Part shown: positions 8,371 through 24,505 of the stretch, in pieces | Position numbering within the stretch: position 1 is the first letter of the stretch | How the letters are laid out: every line of letters begins with the position of its first letter | DNA from: Vulcanimicrobiia bacterium | GTDB taxonomy: Bacteria > Vulcanimicrobiota > Vulcanimicrobiia > Vulcanimicrobiales > Vulcanimicrobiaceae | Direction: 5' to 3' | DNA length: 34,223 nt | NCBI GenBank assembly: GCA_025451135.1 | Contig: JANWKW010000109.1 | Span: 1-34,223 of the forward strand | Notes under the pieces: model-generated | Seen by the model: only the letters and a program-made list of their open reading frames with translations | What the model was told of the DNA's origin: nothing | Databases searched by the model: none | Program-made: the position numbers and the translations under genes

Positions 8371-9741
8371 TTAGCCCGGCGCCTGCTTGGTCAAATGGGC
8401 CACCGGGACGTTGGGATAGACCCCCGTCAGGCAGCCCAGGCACATCTCGGCCCGCTTGCGCCCGGTCGAGGCCACCAGGGCGTCCAGGCTCAGGTACCCG
8501 AGCGAATCGGCCCCGGTCTTCTGCCGGATCTCCTCGACCGTATAGTTGGCCGCGATCAGCTCGTCGTAGCTGGCCATATCCACACCCAGGTAGCAGGGAT
8601 GCATGATCGGCGGCGAGGTGATCCGCAGGTGCACCTCGGTCGCGCCGGCGTCGCGCAGCAGCCGCACGATCCGGGGCGTGGTCGTGCCGCGCACGATCGA
8701 GTCGTCCACCACCACCACCCGCTGGCCGCGCAGGTTCTCGACCACCGGGTTGAACTTCAACTGGACGCCGCGGCCGCGCATCTTCTGATCCGGGCTGATG
8801 AACGTCCGGCCGATGTACCGGTTCTTGATCAGGCCCTCGACGTACGGCAGGTCGCTCTCGGCCGAGTATCCGATGCCGCCCGGCACCGCGGAGTCCGGCA
8901 CTGCCATCACCACGTCCGCATCGACCGGATGCTCGCGCGCCAGCGCCCGGCCCATCTCGTAGCGCGCCATGTAGATCGAGCGTCCCGAGAGCGACGAGTC
9001 CGGCCGCGCGAAGTAGATGTACTCGAACATGCACAGCGCGGACCGCTCGCCCTCGACGTGCACGACGCGCGACTCGATGCCGTCGGCCGAGATGCGCAGC
9101 ACCTCGCCCGCCTTGATCTCGCGGATGTACTCGGCGCCGACCGTCAGCAGCGCGCACGATTCCGAGGCGACCACGTAGCCGCCGTCGGAGAACCGGCCCA
9201 GGCACAGCGGTCGAACGCCCCACGGATCGCGGAACGCGTACAGCTCGTCCTTGGTGCACAGTACGATCGAATACGCGCCGCGCGCCTGCCCGATCACGCT
9301 CGCGATCCGGTCCATCATCGTCCCGCTCGCCGCCGCCAGCGCCTTGCCGAGCACTTCCGTGTCGGAGCTGGCCAGCAGCACCGCCGTCGGCGGCAGCCCG
9401 TCGCGCAGCTCGTCGGTATTGGTCAGGTTGCCGTTGTGCGCGAACGCGAACGTGCCGATCGCGGTATCCTCGAGCAGCGGCTGCGCGTTGACGACCGCCG
9501 ACGAGCCGGTCGTCGAATAGCGCGTATGTCCGATCGCGATGTGGCCGCTCAGTTCGCCGAGCACCTCTTCGTCGAAGATCGCGCCCAGCAGGCCCATCTT
9601 CTTGTGCGAGCGCAGCGTGTCGCCGTCGGCGGCCGCGATCCCGGCCGACTCCTGGCCGCGATGCTGCAGCGCGTACAGCGCGAAATAGGCAAGCCGAGCC
9701 GCATCCCGGCCCGGCGCGAAGATCCCGGTTACACCGCACAT
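8371..9741 (-). CDS. purF: Amidophosphoribosyltransferase
   Basis: PurF makes 5-phosphoribosylamine from PRPP and glutamine, the first committed step of purine synthesis. The 456-residue protein starts MCGVTGIF, so removal of Met exposes the N-terminal nucleophile Cys2 without a propeptide. The glutaminase half shows LQHRGQESAG, GHTRYSTTG and AHNGNL. The phosphoribosyltransferase half shows the PRPP loop VVVVDDSIVRGTTT. The C-terminal cysteines (MHPCYLG, CLGCL) fit the iron-sulfur-type PurF of B. subtilis, though that type usually carries a propeptide. It lies 21 bp behind the BI-1 gene on the same strand. The other purine genes of the window are 9 kb away, so they are not one operon. Confidence 0.97.
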   Translation of the reverse strand: MCGVTGIFAPGRDAARLAYFALYALQHRGQESAGIAAADGDTLRSHKKMGLLGAIFDEEVLGELSGHIAIGHTRYSTTGSSAVVNAQPLLEDTAIGTFAFAHNGNLTNTDELRDGLPPTAVLLASSDTEVLGKALAAASGTMMDRIASVIGQARGAYSIVLCTKDELYAFRDPWGVRPLCLGRFSDGGYVVASESCALLTVGAEYIREIKAGEVLRISADGIESRVVHVEGERSALCMFEYIYFARPDSSLSGRSIYMARYEMGRALAREHPVDADVVMAVPDSAVPGGIGYSAESDLPYVEGLIKNRYIGRTFISPDQKMRGRGVQLKFNPVVENLRGQRVVVVDDSIVRGTTTPRIVRLLRDAGATEVHLRITSPPIMHPCYLGVDMASYDELIAANYTVEEIRQKTGADSLGYLSLDALVASTGRKRAEMCLGCLTGVYPNVPVAHLTKQAPG

Positions 9742-18293: not shown

Positions 18294-18363
18294 CCCATCG
18301 CCAAGCAACCCGGGCAGGCCCTTTTCATCTCGAGCCCCGGCCCCTGTCATGAGCACCGGCTCC

Positions 18364-18478: not shown

Positions 18479-19741
18479 CTACGTGCCGATATCGGTCCGG
18501 TAGGTCAGCTCCGTCGTGCCGATCTTTGCGGCGATCGTCTTGACGCTCTCGTAGGCGCGCTTCCGCGCGCTGGCCAGATCGTCGCCGACGCCGGTCACCG
18601 TCAGCACGCGTCCGCCGCCGGCCATCACCCGTCCGTTCGAGACGGCCGTGTTCCCCCAGAACGCCTGCGCGCCGTCGGGCAGCGCGACGTCGGCGTTGAG
18701 CCCGGCCAGCTCCTTCGACGACCGCGGATAGTCCGGCGTCGCCAGCACCACGCCGACGCACGTCTGCGGCGAGAGCGTCGCCAGGCTCAAGTCCATCGCG
18801 CCGTCCGCGACCGACGCCAGCAGCGCGGCGAAGTCGCCGGTCACCCGCGGCATCATCACCTGCGTCTCGGGGTCCCCGAAGCGCACGTTGAACTCGATCA
18901 CGAACGGGCCGTCCTCGGTCCACATCAAGCCGAGGTAGAGCACGCCGACGTAGGTCTCGCCCTCGGCCAACAAGCCGCGCAGCACCGGCGCGACGATGCG
19001 CTCGCGCACCACGTCCATCATGTCGTCGGGGAATCCGATCGGGGGCGAGAACGCGCCCATCCCGCCGGTGTTGGGTCCGGTATCGCCGTCGCCCGCGCGC
19101 TTGTAGTCGCACGCGCCCGCGATCGGCACCATCGCGCGCCCGTCCGAGAGCGCGAACACGCTGACCTCGCGGCCTTCCAGCCGCTTCTCGAGCAGCACGT
19201 CCGAACCGCCGCCCGGCACCTTGCCCGGCCCGTACCAATCGCGCAGCACGGCCATCGCCGCATCCGCGTCGTCGCACACGACCACGCCCTTGCCGGCCGC
19301 CAAGCCGTCGGCTTTCACCACCACCCCGTCGCGCCAGCCGTCCAGCGCCTTGCGCGCCGTCTCGAGCGAATGCACCACCGTGAAGCGCGCGGTCGGCACG
19401 CCGTGCCGCTCCATGAACCGCTTCGCGAAGATCTTGCTCGACTCGAGCCGTCCGCTCGAGCGGCTCGGCCCGAACACCCGCAGCCCGGCGTCCTTGAGCT
19501 TGTCGCAGACGCCCGACGCGATCGACACCTCGGGCCCGACCACCACCAGGTCGATGCCTTCGGCCAGCGCCCGTTCCGCCAGCGCCCGGCCGTCGGTCGG
19601 CGAGATGTCCCAGTTCGTGCCGCGCGAGGCCGTCCCGGCGTTGCCGGGCGCGGCGAAGATCGCCTCGCACGACGGCGATTGGGCCAAACGCCACGAGAGC
19701 GCATCTTCGCGCGCGCCGTTGCCGACCACGAGTATCTTCAC
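18479..19741 (-). CDS. purD: Phosphoribosylamine-glycine ligase
   Basis: PurD joins glycine to phosphoribosylamine using ATP, giving GAR, the second step of purine synthesis. The 420-residue length and sequence fit: an N-terminal MKILVVGNGAREDALSWRLA, VVVGPEVSIASGVCDKL, the ATP-grasp stretch GVVVKADGLAAGKGVVVC, and FVIEFNVRFGDPETQVMMPR with the metal-binding Glu and Asn. It starts with GTG, four bases after the guaA stop, with GGGA inside the end of guaA as a likely ribosome site, so guaA and purD are one operon. Its product follows that of PurF, encoded 9 kb away on the same strand. Confidence 0.97.
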   Translation of the reverse strand: MKILVVGNGAREDALSWRLAQSPSCEAIFAAPGNAGTASRGTNWDISPTDGRALAERALAEGIDLVVVGPEVSIASGVCDKLKDAGLRVFGPSRSSGRLESSKIFAKRFMERHGVPTARFTVVHSLETARKALDGWRDGVVVKADGLAAGKGVVVCDDADAAMAVLRDWYGPGKVPGGGSDVLLEKRLEGREVSVFALSDGRAMVPIAGACDYKRAGDGDTGPNTGGMGAFSPPIGFPDDMMDVVRERIVAPVLRGLLAEGETYVGVLYLGLMWTEDGPFVIEFNVRFGDPETQVMMPRVTGDFAALLASVADGAMDLSLATLSPQTCVGVVLATPDYPRSSKELAGLNADVALPDGAQAFWGNTAVSNGRVMAGGGRVLTVTGVGDDLASARKRAYESVKTIAAKIGTTELTYRTDIGT

Positions 19742-19745
19742 GGTA

Positions 19746-21284
19746 CTATTCCCACTCCACCGTCGCCGGCGGTTTCGAGGTGATGTCGTAGGCGACGCGG
19801 TTCACGCCGCGCACCTCGTTGACGATGCGCGTCGAGATCCGTTCCAGCAGCGCGTGCGGCAGACGCGCCCAGTCGGCCGTCATGCCGTCCTCGCTGGTGA
19901 TCGAGCGCAACGCCACCAAATTCGCATAGGTCCGGCCGTCGCCCATCACGCCGACCGACTTGACCGGCGTCAGCACCGCGAAGTACTGCCACGGCTTGGG
20001 ATCGAGCGTCGCCGCCTCGATCTCGGCGCACACGATCGCATCCGCCTCGCGCACGACCGTCAACCGCTCCTCGGTGATGTCGCCGATGATCCGGACCGCC
20101 AGCCCCGGCCCCGGGAACGGCTGCCGCTGCACCACGTGCTCCGGCAGGCCGAGCACCCGGCCGAGTTCGCGCACTTCGTCTTTGAACAGCGAACGCAGCG
20201 GCTCGATCAGCGAGAAATCCATGTGTTCGGGCAGGCCGCCGACGTTGTGATGCGACTTGATCTTATGCCCGGCTTTGCTGTCGGGCGTCTTCGATTCGAT
20301 CACGTCCGGGTAGAGCGTCCCCTGCACCAGATACTTCACGCCCGGGATCTTGGCCGCTTCTTCTTCGAAGAGCCGGATGAATTCGTGGCCGATGATCACC
20401 CGCTTGCGCTCCGGATCCTCGACCCCGGCCAGCGCGTCGAGGAAGCGCTTGCGCGCGTCGATCGCGATCACGTTGAGGTGCAGCACGTCGCGGAACGCCG
20501 CCACCACCGACTCGGCCTCGCCCTTGCGCAGCAAGCCGTGATCGACGAACACGCAGGTCAGCTGCTCGCCGATCGCCCGCGCCACCAGCGTCGCCGCGAC
20601 CGCCGAATCGACGCCGCCCGAGAGCGCGCAGATCACCCGGTCGGAGCCGACCTTCGCCTTGATCTCGGCGGTCGCCGTCTCGACGAACGAATCCATCCGC
20701 CACGCGTTGCCGAGTCCCGCGATGCCGTGCAAGAAGTTGTCGAGCACCCGGCGGCCGCATTCCGAATGCACCACCTCGGGATGGAACTGCACGCCGTAGA
20801 TCTTGCGCCGCGCGTCGCCCATCGCGGCGACCTCGCACCGGTCCGTCGACGCCAGCTTCTCGAACCCGTCGCCGAGGCGCGTGACCGAATCGCCGTGCGA
20901 CATCCACACCCGCGTGGTCGGATCGACGCCGGCGAACAGCCCGGCGGCGCTCGCCGCCCGCAGCTCGGCCGGCCCGTACTCCGCATGGTCGAGCTTCACC
21001 AGCTCCGAGCCCAGATGGCGCGCGATCAGCTGCATCCCGTAGCAGATCCCCAGGATCGGCACGCCGCTGCTCAGCAGCGCGGGATCCACGTCGGGCGCAT
21101 CCGGCACCAGTGTCGACTCCGGGCCGCCGGATAGGATGATCGCCCCCGGCGAGCGCGCCGCCAACGTCGCCCACGGCGTGTCGAACGGCACGATCTCGCA
21201 GTAGACCCCCGCCTCGCGCACCCGCCGCGCGATCAGCTGGCTATACTGCGCCCCAAAATCGAGAACGAAGACCGTCTCAGCCAT
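19746..21284 (-). CDS. guaA: GMP synthase (glutamine-hydrolysing)
   Basis: GuaA converts XMP to GMP with ATP and glutamine. The 512-residue protein has the class I glutaminase domain (residues 1-190: [10 protein letters not shown] with the nucleophile Cys, and [11 protein letters not shown] with the catalytic His and Glu), the ATP-pyrophosphatase domain ([14 protein letters not shown]-loop) and the dimerisation domain ending [18 protein letters not shown]. It is a complete bacterial-type single-chain enzyme. Dispersed repeat copy 6 begins directly before its ATG, so the leader and the ribosome site (GGGATGACAA before ATG, with GGGA the only purine-rich stretch) come from the repeat. purD follows after four bases. 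Confidence 0.97.
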
Positions 21285-21339: not shown

Positions 21340-21864
21340 CTACGCCGCTTTGGTCGCGGCGATGGTGGCGTCGTAGTTCGGCTCGGTCGTCACTTCCGGG
21401 ACGATCTCGACGTACTTGATCGTCTTGTCCTTGCCGATCACGACGTTGGCGCGCGCCAGCAGGCCGATCTCCTTGATGCGCAGGCCGTAGGCCGTCCCGA
21501 ACTCGTGGGTCTTGAAGTCCGAGAGCATCGAAAGACCTTCCACGCCTTCGGCGCCGGCCCAGCGGCCCATCGCCATCGGCAGATCCATGCTCACGACGTA
21601 CGCCTTGGCGCCGTCGCCCAGCTCTTCGACCCGGCCGTTGAACGTCTTCGATTCCAGCGAGCAGACGCCGGTGTCGAGCGACGGCACCACGATGAGCAGC
21701 GCGTTGCGCGTGCCGCCGGCGGTCACGTCGTCGAGCGAGACCGGCTTCATGTCGCCGCCGGTCAGGTGCAGTTCGGGCGCGGCGTCGCCGACCTTGACGG
21801 TCTTCCCGACGAGCGTCATCGGATTGCCGCGCATGGTGATGACGCCGGTGACTTCTTCTGCCAT
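21340..21864 (-). CDS. tpx: Thiol peroxidase (Tpx), resolving cysteine missing
   Basis: Tpx reduces hydrogen and alkyl peroxides in the cytoplasm. The 174-residue protein has the peroxidatic Cys68 in PSLDTGVCSLE with Thr65, and Arg128 in LLARANVVIG. The usual resolving cysteine in the RFCGAEG motif is replaced: the motif reads RWAGAEG, with Ala103. Cys68 is the only cysteine, so the enzyme must work by a one-cysteine mechanism with an outside thiol. I chose ATG 21864 because GGGGAA lies six bases upstream; ATG 21876 would add four residues. It lies between purP and guaA on the same strand, 48 bp after the purP stop. Confidence 0.93.
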   Translation of the reverse strand: MAEEVTGVITMRGNPMTLVGKTVKVGDAAPELHLTGGDMKPVSLDDVTAGGTRNALLIVVPSLDTGVCSLESKTFNGRVEELGDGAKAYVVSMDLPMAMGRWAGAEGVEGLSMLSDFKTHEFGTAYGLRIKEIGLLARANVVIGKDKTIKYVEIVPEVTTEPNYDATIAATKAA

Positions 21865-21912
21865 GATGTTCCCCATTCGAGCGAAATCGAGTGTCTTCGT
21901 AGTGTAGTGGTC

Positions 21913-23067
21913 TTAGGTTAAGATCTCTTGAAGGCGGTCGGCATCGCGCGCGAACGTCACTTCCATCGCGATACGTTCTCCGACCGAGACGTCGCGTCCC
22001 CAGCGGTAGGCCGAGTATGGCGTATAACGCGTCCCGGGCGATCCCGGGATGCGCAGCGAGACGTCGTAGCACACGAACGCCTTGGGCGGTCCAGCCACGA
22101 TCACGCACTGCAGCGCGAACGGTCCGATGATGCCCGGCGGCTTGGCCGCCTTCGCCGCGGCGACGAAGCGCTCGCCCATCTCGAACGCCTTCTCCAGCGT
22201 CGACTCGGTCAAGGTCGTCGCGATGTGGCCGGCCTCTTCCAACCGCATCGGCACCGAGCGCAGCCCGTCGAACGCCGAGGGCGGCACGTTGCGGAAGCCT
22301 TCCAGGTTCGTCTGCCGGCGGGTATCGGTCCCCATCAGCTCCAGCTCGCCCAGGATCGGCGAGTAGAAGAAATTCAGATTGACCGACGGCCCGAGCGCGT
22401 ACTCCTCGATCACCGCGCCGCGCAATCCGTCCTCGGTCACCATCCCGGCGGCCAGGAGCTTCTCGGCCTGCTCGCGGTATTCGGCCGGCGACGAGCACAG
22501 GAAGAACGCCCGTTCGAACGAGATCTTCGCGTGCGGCGCTTTCACCATCACCAGCCGGTCGATCGCATCGGCCGACGGGAACTGCAGCGGATAGCGGATC
22601 CCGGCCGCTTCCATCAGGGCGTACTGGTTGTTCGCCTCGCCGCGCTCCTCGGCGCGCAGCAGCGATCGGCTGCCGAAGAACGGCACCTGCATCTTCGCTT
22701 CGATCTGGTCGTACGAGTACTGCTGGTGGAGGTACACCTCGAACGACCGGTTGGCCACGAAGATCGCGTTCTGCGCGAACAGCGCCGCCTGCACGTCGTC
22801 GTCCAGGAGGTCGGCGAACTTGTCGAGCTGATACGTCGAATCCACGCACCCGCGCGCCGGCACCGAATCGTCGCGGAAATAGTACCGCAGGTACGTCTTC
22901 TCGCGCCCCTTCTCCGTCACGATCAGATTGCGCAGCCCCTGGAGCCGCGCTCCGTAGGCCACATCCAACGCCGAATGACTGCCGATCGAGCAGAGCGCCA
23001 GGCGCGACCGATCGTAGGCGGAAAGCGCCCGGGAAACCGATTCATGCACGTCCCCCCGGTACGACAT
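21913..23067 (-). CDS. purP: PurP-family 5-formaminoimidazole-4-carboxamide ribonucleotide synthetase-like ATP-grasp protein
   Basis: PurP makes FAICAR from AICAR, formate and ATP in archaea, replacing the transformylase half of PurH. The 384-residue protein shows the family features: GSHSALDVAYGARLQG (residues 29-44), VPFFGSRSLLRAEER (about 128-142), EEYALGPSVNLNFFYSPILG, ELELMGTDTRRQTNLEG, and a C-terminal ATP-grasp end with DVSLRIPG and PYSAYRWGRDVSVGERIAMEV. The start ATG 23067 excludes an upstream extension that is merely translation of a dispersed repeat. It lies in a minus-strand group with tpx, guaA and purD, which supports a purine role. PurP-like paralogues of other function exist, so the reaction is likely but not proven. 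Confidence 0.85.
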   Translation of the reverse strand: MSYRGDVHESVSRALSAYDRSRLALCSIGSHSALDVAYGARLQGLRNLIVTEKGREKTYLRYYFRDDSVPARGCVDSTYQLDKFADLLDDDVQAALFAQNAIFVANRSFEVYLHQQYSYDQIEAKMQVPFFGSRSLLRAEERGEANNQYALMEAAGIRYPLQFPSADAIDRLVMVKAPHAKISFERAFFLCSSPAEYREQAEKLLAAGMVTEDGLRGAVIEEYALGPSVNLNFFYSPILGELELMGTDTRRQTNLEGFRNVPPSAFDGLRSVPMRLEEAGHIATTLTESTLEKAFEMGERFVAAAKAAKPPGIIGPFALQCVIVAGPPKAFVCYDVSLRIPGSPGTRYTPYSAYRWGRDVSVGERIAMEVTFARDADRLQEILT

Positions 23068-23149: not shown

Positions 23150-24505
23150 ATGGCAACCCTCCTGATCCGGAACGCCGCCCGCATCGAGACGTTCGACGAC
23201 GCCGATGCCGCCTACGACGGCGGTTCGATCTTCGTGCGCGACAACGTCATCGAGCAGATCGGCCCATCGGCCGCCCTGCCGCAGACCGCGGACCGGATCG
23301 TGGACGCGAGCGACTGCATCGTCATCCCGGGCCTAGTCAACACGCACCATCACTTCTATCAGACGCTCACGCGCAACGTGCCCGGCACCCAGGACGCCAA
23401 GCTGTTCGATTGGCTGACGACCCTCTATCCGATCTGGGCGCGCATGGACGCGGAAGCGTTCCGCAGCGCGACCGGCGTCGCGCTCGCCGAACTGCTCAAG
23501 TCCGGCTGCACGACCGCCTTCGACCACACCTACATGTGGCCCAACGGCGCCCGCGTCGACGACCAGGTCGATGTCGCGCGCGCCATGGGCGTCCGCTTCC
23601 ACGTCTCGCGCGGCTCGATGTCCGTCGGCCGTTCCAAGGGCGGCCTTCCGCCGGACTCGTGCGTCGAGGACGAAGACGCCATCCTGGCCGACTGCGAACG
23701 CGTCGTCGACGCCTTCCACGACGCCTCGCGCTACGCGATGACCCGCGTCGTGCTCGCGCCCTGTTCGCCGTTCTCGGTCTCGCCCGATCTGATGCGCCAG
23801 AGCGCCGACCTCGCGCGCCGCAAGGGCGTCCATCTGCACACCCATCTCGCCGAAACGCTCGACGAAGAACACTTCTGCCTCGAGACGTTCGGCCGCCGCC
23901 CGGTCGAACTCGCCGAAGACCTCGGCTGGGTCGGCGCCGACGTCTGGTACGCGCACATGGTGCACCCGTCGCCCGATGAGATCGGCCGCCTCGGCGCCAC
24001 CCGCACCGGCATGGCCCACTGCCCGAGTTCCAACATGCGCCTCGCCTCCGGCGTCGCCCCGATCGGCGCGATGCGCAAAGCCGGCGCACGCGTCGGCCTC
24101 GCCGTCGACGGCTCGGCATCCAATGACTCGTCGCATCTTTTGATGGAAGCGCGCCAGGCGCTCCTCGTGCAGCGCGTCCACAACCTCGATCCGGCCGCAC
24201 TCACCGCCCGCGAGGCCCTACGCATCGCGACGCGCGGCGGCGCCGAAGTCCTCGGGCGCGACGACATCGGCCACCTCGCCGTCGGCATGGCCGCCGACAT
24301 CGTCGGCTTCCGCCTCGACACCCTCGATCTGGCCGGCGGCGCCATCCACGACCCGCTCGCCGCCCTCGTCTTCTGCACGCCCCCCAACGCCGACTTCGCG
24401 ATCGTCAACGGCATCCCCAAGATCGAACACGCCGCCGTCATCGACCTCGACGTACAACAACTCGTCGCGACGCAGAATCGCATCGCAAAGCAACTGCTAG
24501 CTTGA
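23150..24505 (+). CDS. 8-oxoguanine deaminase-like amidohydrolase (AtzA/TrzA family)
   Basis: This 451-residue metal hydrolase of the ATZ/TRZ amidohydrolase group has PGLVNTHHHFYQTLTRNVPG (metal His66 and His68), a metal His in HLHTHLAETLDEEH, a further His in WYAHMVHP, and the catalytic Asp in DGSASNDSSHL. The stretch FYQTLTRNVPGTQDAKLFDW and the length are typical of 8-oxoguanine deaminases, which turn 8-oxoguanine into urate. Related enzymes deaminate other purines or triazines, so the substrate is inferred. It should be cytosolic. It is divergent from purP, and a molybdenum hydroxylase of xanthine-dehydrogenase type lies 3.5 kb on, which fits purine salvage or breakdown. Confidence 0.88.
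   Translation: MATLLIRNAARIETFDDADAAYDGGSIFVRDNVIEQIGPSAALPQTADRIVDASDCIVIPGLVNTHHHFYQTLTRNVPGTQDAKLFDWLTTLYPIWARMDAEAFRSATGVALAELLKSGCTTAFDHTYMWPNGARVDDQVDVARAMGVRFHVSRGSMSVGRSKGGLPPDSCVEDEDAILADCERVVDAFHDASRYAMTRVVLAPCSPFSVSPDLMRQSADLARRKGVHLHTHLAETLDEEHFCLETFGRRPVELAEDLGWVGADVWYAHMVHPSPDEIGRLGATRTGMAHCPSSNMRLASGVAPIGAMRKAGARVGLAVDGSASNDSSHLLMEARQALLVQRVHNLDPAALTAREALRIATRGGAEVLGRDDIGHLAVGMAADIVGFRLDTLDLAGGAIHDPLAALVFCTPPNADFAIVNGIPKIEHAAVIDLDVQQLVATQNRIAKQLLA

Follow-up and report, generated by a model that had tools for sequence, protein, structure and literature searches.

Archaeal PurP proteins form two clusters, of which cluster I includes the characterised MJ0136 and cluster II has no assigned function (Brown et al. 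2011, PMC3261824). In MJ0136, Asn258 contacts the AICAR carboxamide, and His27 and Arg314 contact the formyl group. In cluster II, Asn258 is replaced by His, and the loop at 161-165 is two residues longer and devoid of glycines (PMC3261824). Archaea of the MJ0136 type have a single PurP; Pyrococcus and Crenarchaeota that have both clusters are without a known IMP cyclohydrolase, leaving the last step of their purine synthesis without an identified enzyme. This gene distribution led Brown et al. to the idea, untested at that time, that cluster II proteins are cyclohydrolases (PMC3261824). PurP has been stated to occur in archaea only (PMC4177761). A search of the open literature, with subscription papers and preprints outside its scope, returned no assigned function for cluster II, no description of PurP in Eremiobacterota or CPR bacteria and no relevant paper on PurV.

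The window, i.e. the whole stretch of 34,223 nucleotides of bacterial DNA analysed here, contains a PurP-family gene, purP2, whose product resembles archaeal cluster II proteins (PF0421, AF0256; PMC3261824) in the exchange of Asn258 for His, the longer glycine-free loop, the His27 and Arg314 equivalents and, in the relatives of the source genome, the pairing with cluster I. AF0256 is clustered with guaA1 and thus shares a purine gene neighbourhood with the window. The cluster II set of PMC3261824 is, however, exclusively archaeal, whereas the window protein is bacterial, stems from a genome with a complete PurH and has relatives encoded in a bacterial-type purine operon. The cluster II kind has been known from archaea since 2011; its presence in Eremiobacterota is a new group of organisms. 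Two statements are thereby corrected, namely that PurP is confined to archaea and that the window gene makes FAICAR.

Assignment to cluster II

The gene at 21913-23067 on the minus strand encodes 384 amino acids, with its ATG at 23067 and its stop at 21913. When read from an earlier start at 23184, the frame crosses a dispersed repeat and overlaps the divergent gene at 23150. The protein matched the Pfam families DUF1246 (PF06849, 2.8e-33) and DUF1297 (PF06973, 5.9e-54), both at full length and in order, and the only solved structures related to it by sequence were three archaeal PurP proteins, 2r7k (1.6e-56), 2r84 (1.4e-36) and 2pbz (1.2e-21). An archaeal-type PurP, as the original prediction had it, is therefore confirmed at the level of the family. 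All six NCBIfam PurP models matched far under their cut-offs (best 241.6 bits vs 556), and the cut-offs of the formylase equivalog PRK13278 were missed. An AlphaFold2 model (pLDDT 91.4, pTM 0.90) had M. jannaschii PurP, 2r7k, as its top PDB match (TM 0.85, with 32% of the structurally aligned residues identical); the model has the PurP ATP-grasp fold.

In the alignment, His281 (codon at 22225-22227 on the minus strand, as computed from the residue number and the ORF start at 23067) takes the place of MJ0136 Asn258, the AICAR carboxamide contact (PMC3261824). The P-loop (K/R)GG(K/R)G at 161-165 is absent and replaced by AKISFER, in a loop of 18 instead of 16 residues. These two features went together in the 178 sequences collected: all 103 with Asn258 had the loop of 16 residues, which contained GGxG in 102, and all 74 with His258 had the loop of 18 residues, which contained GGxG in none. 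The one exception was a cluster II sequence, L136, with Pro at 258. The equivalents of His27, Ser266 and Arg314 are kept in cluster II, and His31, Ser289 and Arg339 are those of the window protein. Cluster II also has invariants of its own in or near the site: Arg107, His258 and, within the loop, Glu185-Arg186. Position 310 stays acidic (Glu to Asp), so that use of ATP or a metal by cluster II is conceivable. When compared with MJ0136 (2r7k), the window protein thus shares the two-domain ATP-grasp fold predicted by the model and the substrate contacts His27, Ser94, Ser266 and Arg314, but has lost the P-loop, Asn258, Trp121, Asn320 and other cluster I invariants. Within Ca. Eremiobacterota, cluster I and cluster II proteins are about 30-35% identical.

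Phylogeny placed the window protein among cluster II, not cluster I. Its Eremiobacterota clade within cluster II had a support of 1.0 in FastTree, and a second tree grouped it with cluster II (UFBoot 100), with the Thermococcales cluster II proteins as neighbour group. From the two Pfam domains, His281, the 18-residue loop without GGxG, the clade and the model, we conclude that the window gene is almost certainly a cluster II PurP paralogue; its earlier designation as the enzyme converting AICAR to FAICAR was not supported.

Gene neighbourhood

On the same strand, purP2 is followed after 36 nt by tpx (21340-21876; thiol peroxidase, NF001808 above cut-off), after another 55 nt by guaA (19746-21284; GMP synthase, NF000848, 774 bits) and after 4 nt more by purD (18479-19741; GAR synthetase, TIGR00877, 417 bits). 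This gene order bears out the proposed grouping with guaA and purD, interrupted only by tpx, and tpx has the same position in L068, L071, L074 and L077. The next purine gene of the order conserved in relatives, purF (8371-9741, minus strand; same family as L065 1835-3289, with GATase_6 and Pribosyltran domains), is displaced by about 9 kb in the window. The divergent neighbour at 23150-24505 on the plus strand encodes an 8-oxoguanine deaminase (NF006055, 661 bits) and lies outside the conserved operon. An intergenic repeat some 38 nt long (TTTGTCATCCCGAGCGTAGCGAAGCGAAGTCGAGGGAC, with variants) is dispersed over the window, at 18363, 21284, 23077, 24542, 24572, 27091 and 27121; one copy lies just 5' of the purP2 start and another between guaA and tpx.

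A named relative, L156, identifies the phylum of the source genome as Candidatus Eremiobacterota. PF06849 genes were present in 112 of the 117 genomes of the window's class, and 101 of the 117 had exactly two, the usual content being one cluster I and one cluster II gene. The order in these relatives is purB, purC(E), purL, purQ, purP1, purP2, guaA and purD, in many cases with a PurS-like gene before purP1, in some with tpx before guaA and in several with purF after purD; most of the loci fetched showed parts of it. A distance of 27 kb separates purP1 from purP2 in one genome (L079, L080). A conserved protein of about 385 amino acids without a Pfam match above cut-off is encoded directly after purP1, mostly before purP2, at L068 3306-4463 and nine other loci. 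The PurS-like proteins before purP1 at L064 10691-11335 and L068 1884-2342 are unusual: one has two PurS-like stretches and one is without any Pfam match. At L073 14918-16123, SAICAR synthetase is fused to a weak PurE-like domain within the Eremiobacterota operon.

Outside the class, a match was found in one of 32 genomes (G146, locus L082). Its scaffold has a run of N, with one half that contains PurP looking archaeal and the other half bacterial. We therefore rejected a second PurP-bearing lineage of the phylum, since this chimeric-looking scaffold is likely bin contamination.

PurH and the source genome

A missing or partial PurH had been offered as a reason for the presence of PurP. The source genome (assembly of 2.1 Mb, 70% complete) carries a complete purH on another contig (C172; L002 1081-2667, 528 amino acids), in which the transformylase Lys-His motif is intact and Lys66, Tyr104, Asp125 and Lys137 of the cyclohydrolase are conserved. 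Loss or decay of PurH was thus ruled out here and in 68 of the 70 better genomes of the class, where PurH is present; in the relatives, too, it is encoded apart from the purP operon. The change from NPHQ to NPQ in the transformylase motif, considered as a sign of decay, is class-wide, yet it also occurs in the PurP-free genome L033 and is therefore of no diagnostic value. As far as can be tested, the source genome combines a complete purH with a protein of a paralogue clade of putatively other function, which tells against the original prediction. The bifunctional PurH covers both steps from AICAR to IMP, but is an unrelated, folate-dependent protein encoded away from the operon. PurO (PF07826), the archaeal IMP cyclohydrolase, gave no match in the source genome. 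It would be a functional analogue if purP2 were a cyclohydrolase, but belongs to an unrelated family and is absent from 47 of 50 PurP-bearing genomes searched.

The source assembly contains a single PF06849 gene, and no cluster I purP1 was found in the 70% that it represents. Neither was purQ, the neighbour of purP1 in relatives (a search without positive control), and because both were missed together, purP1 is likely missing through an assembly gap and not through absence of the gene. PurT, considered as an indicator of formate use in general, had no match above cut-off in the class; PurN-like genes are present instead, nearly all under the PurN cut-off.

Distribution of the PurP pair

When 84,980 species genomes were scanned with an alignment of cluster I, 383 relatives were found. 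The best 80 of these belong to Thermococcales, Methanococci, DPANN archaea, CPR bacteria (Peregrinibacteria, Curtissbacteria, Saccharibacteria and Daviesbacteria), Dependentiae, one Chlamydiae bin and Eremiobacterota. Except in Thermococcales and Methanococci, the gene after cluster I, in the same orientation, is nearly always cluster II. The pair often lies among purL, purQ, purM, purA, purB, purE, purC and guaA, and close to guaA or purA in Woesearchaeota, Dependentiae and Curtissbacteria; beyond the phylum these gene names come from reading the sequences, not from a profile search.

In 50 of these genomes searched whole, we found the PurH transformylase in 33, PurO in 3 and PurC in 42; the PurH cyclohydrolase profile matched in 36, three of these matches being only CarB. 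Thirteen genomes (G150, G154, G160, G162, G166, G167, G172, G175, G181, G185, G192, G193 and G195; bin completeness undefined), both Dependentiae included, have PurC and the pair without PurH1, PurH2 or PurO, and several of them are small MAGs whose relatives carry PurH. Curtissbacteria, tried as a clean cyclohydrolase-free group, were rejected on account of a split, diverged PurH2: at L176-L183 the transformylase and a strongly diverged cyclohydrolase with its catalytic residues kept are separate genes. In the Saccharibacteria bin G174, which has a purP pair, the Lys66 motif of PurH is changed to HRVVTLSR (L187 432-2111).

Proposed function of purP2

The best explanation, which we put forward tentatively, is that purP2 converts FAICAR to IMP and that purP1 and purP2 together provide a predicted route from AICAR to IMP that needs no folate and runs alongside PurH. 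In this route purP1 would formylate AICAR to FAICAR with ATP and formate, and purP2 would close the ring. For the latter, purP2 retains His31, Ser289 and Arg339, which would bind the nucleotide and the formyl group, and the His replacing the Asn that holds the carboxamide may serve as an acid/base. The ATP loop has lost its glycines and is rebuilt around the invariant Glu-Arg. A cyclohydrolase would fit a site that binds FAICAR without further need of ATP and has gained a His where the carboxamide reacts. The clean signature (74/74 His258 vs 103/103 Asn258), the formyl contacts equivalent to His27 and Arg314, the operon purB-purC-purL-purQ-purP1-purP2-guaA-purD of the relatives, the position near guaA or purA in the three groups named above, the 13 genomes with PurC and the pair that lack PurH1, PurH2 and PurO and the correlated P1 and P2 tree distances (r 0.84) all argue for this reading. 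Most bacterial holders, the source genome included, nevertheless carry a working-looking PurH, and with its cyclohydrolase residues intact there is no pathway gap in the source genome that would demand purP2. Cluster II is kept in Archaeoglobi next to PurH2 and in T. kodakarensis next to PurO (PMC3261824). Several of the 13 genomes are small MAGs with PurH-bearing relatives, the cluster II protein of one cyclohydrolase-free genome (L136) has Pro and not His at 258, and the acid at 310 is kept.

The main rival, a somewhat unlikely one, is a partner subunit: purP2 would assemble with purP1 and be required for, or regulate, the formate-dependent formylation of AICAR, without cyclising FAICAR. That cluster II is almost always paired with, and adjacent to, cluster I is consistent with such a complex, as are the correlated trees, and so is the loss of the ATP loop with retention of the substrate site. 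P. furiosus PF1517 (cluster Ib) and PF0421 (cluster II), each reported to be without AICAR formyltransferase activity (PMC3261824), would fit an obligate pair. M. jannaschii PurP, on the other hand, is active without a cluster II partner (PMC3261824), and the invariants His258, Glu185-Arg186 and Arg107 point to a function of cluster II itself. A second rival is another ATP-grasp reaction, in which purP2 would still use ATP with the altered loop and have some other purine intermediate or acid as its substrate. The fold retained according to the model, the acid at 310 (Glu to Asp) together with Arg314 and the long conservation across bacteria and archaea would agree with this. It is nonetheless improbable, with the GGxG gone from the loop in 74/74 cluster II sequences and operons that point to no further pathway step without a candidate enzyme. 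Finally, family membership and operon context are what would be seen with an ordinary PurP that stands in for PurH in the conversion of AICAR to FAICAR. Loss of the P-loop and of Asn258, placement in the cluster II clade, the complete purH of the genome and the separate cluster I gene that relatives have for this step make it a very remote candidate.

Extended to other organisms, the cyclohydrolase reading becomes slightly more speculative still: cluster II PurP may be the missing IMP cyclohydrolase of Crenarchaeota and their relatives, and clusters I and II a transferable two-gene, folate-independent module from AICAR to IMP that has been passed on to Eremiobacterota, CPR bacteria and Dependentiae. 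A bacterial pair in a clear purine operon and pair-bearing genomes without a known cyclohydrolase offer mesophilic proteins and a simple complementation test, so that the old question of cluster II function becomes testable in bacteria.

Origin of the pair

Judged from the trees, it is plausible that the pair came from the archaeal side by transfer. A transfer between archaea and bacteria, also suggested by the original prediction as an ancient event, thus retains its plausibility, its direction being unproven. Tree distances of P1 and P2 correlated with r 0.84 overall and 0.82 within Eremiobacterota, as expected if the pair was inherited together. With a sampling that left out Crenarchaeota, Thaumarchaeota and Asgard archaea, the bacterial sequences fell among DPANN in both halves of the tree, with Thermococcales (cluster II) and Methanococci (cluster I) outside. 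Eremiobacterota were sister to Curtissbacteria in the cluster I half (100) and branched before the sampled DPANN and CPR sequences in the cluster II half.
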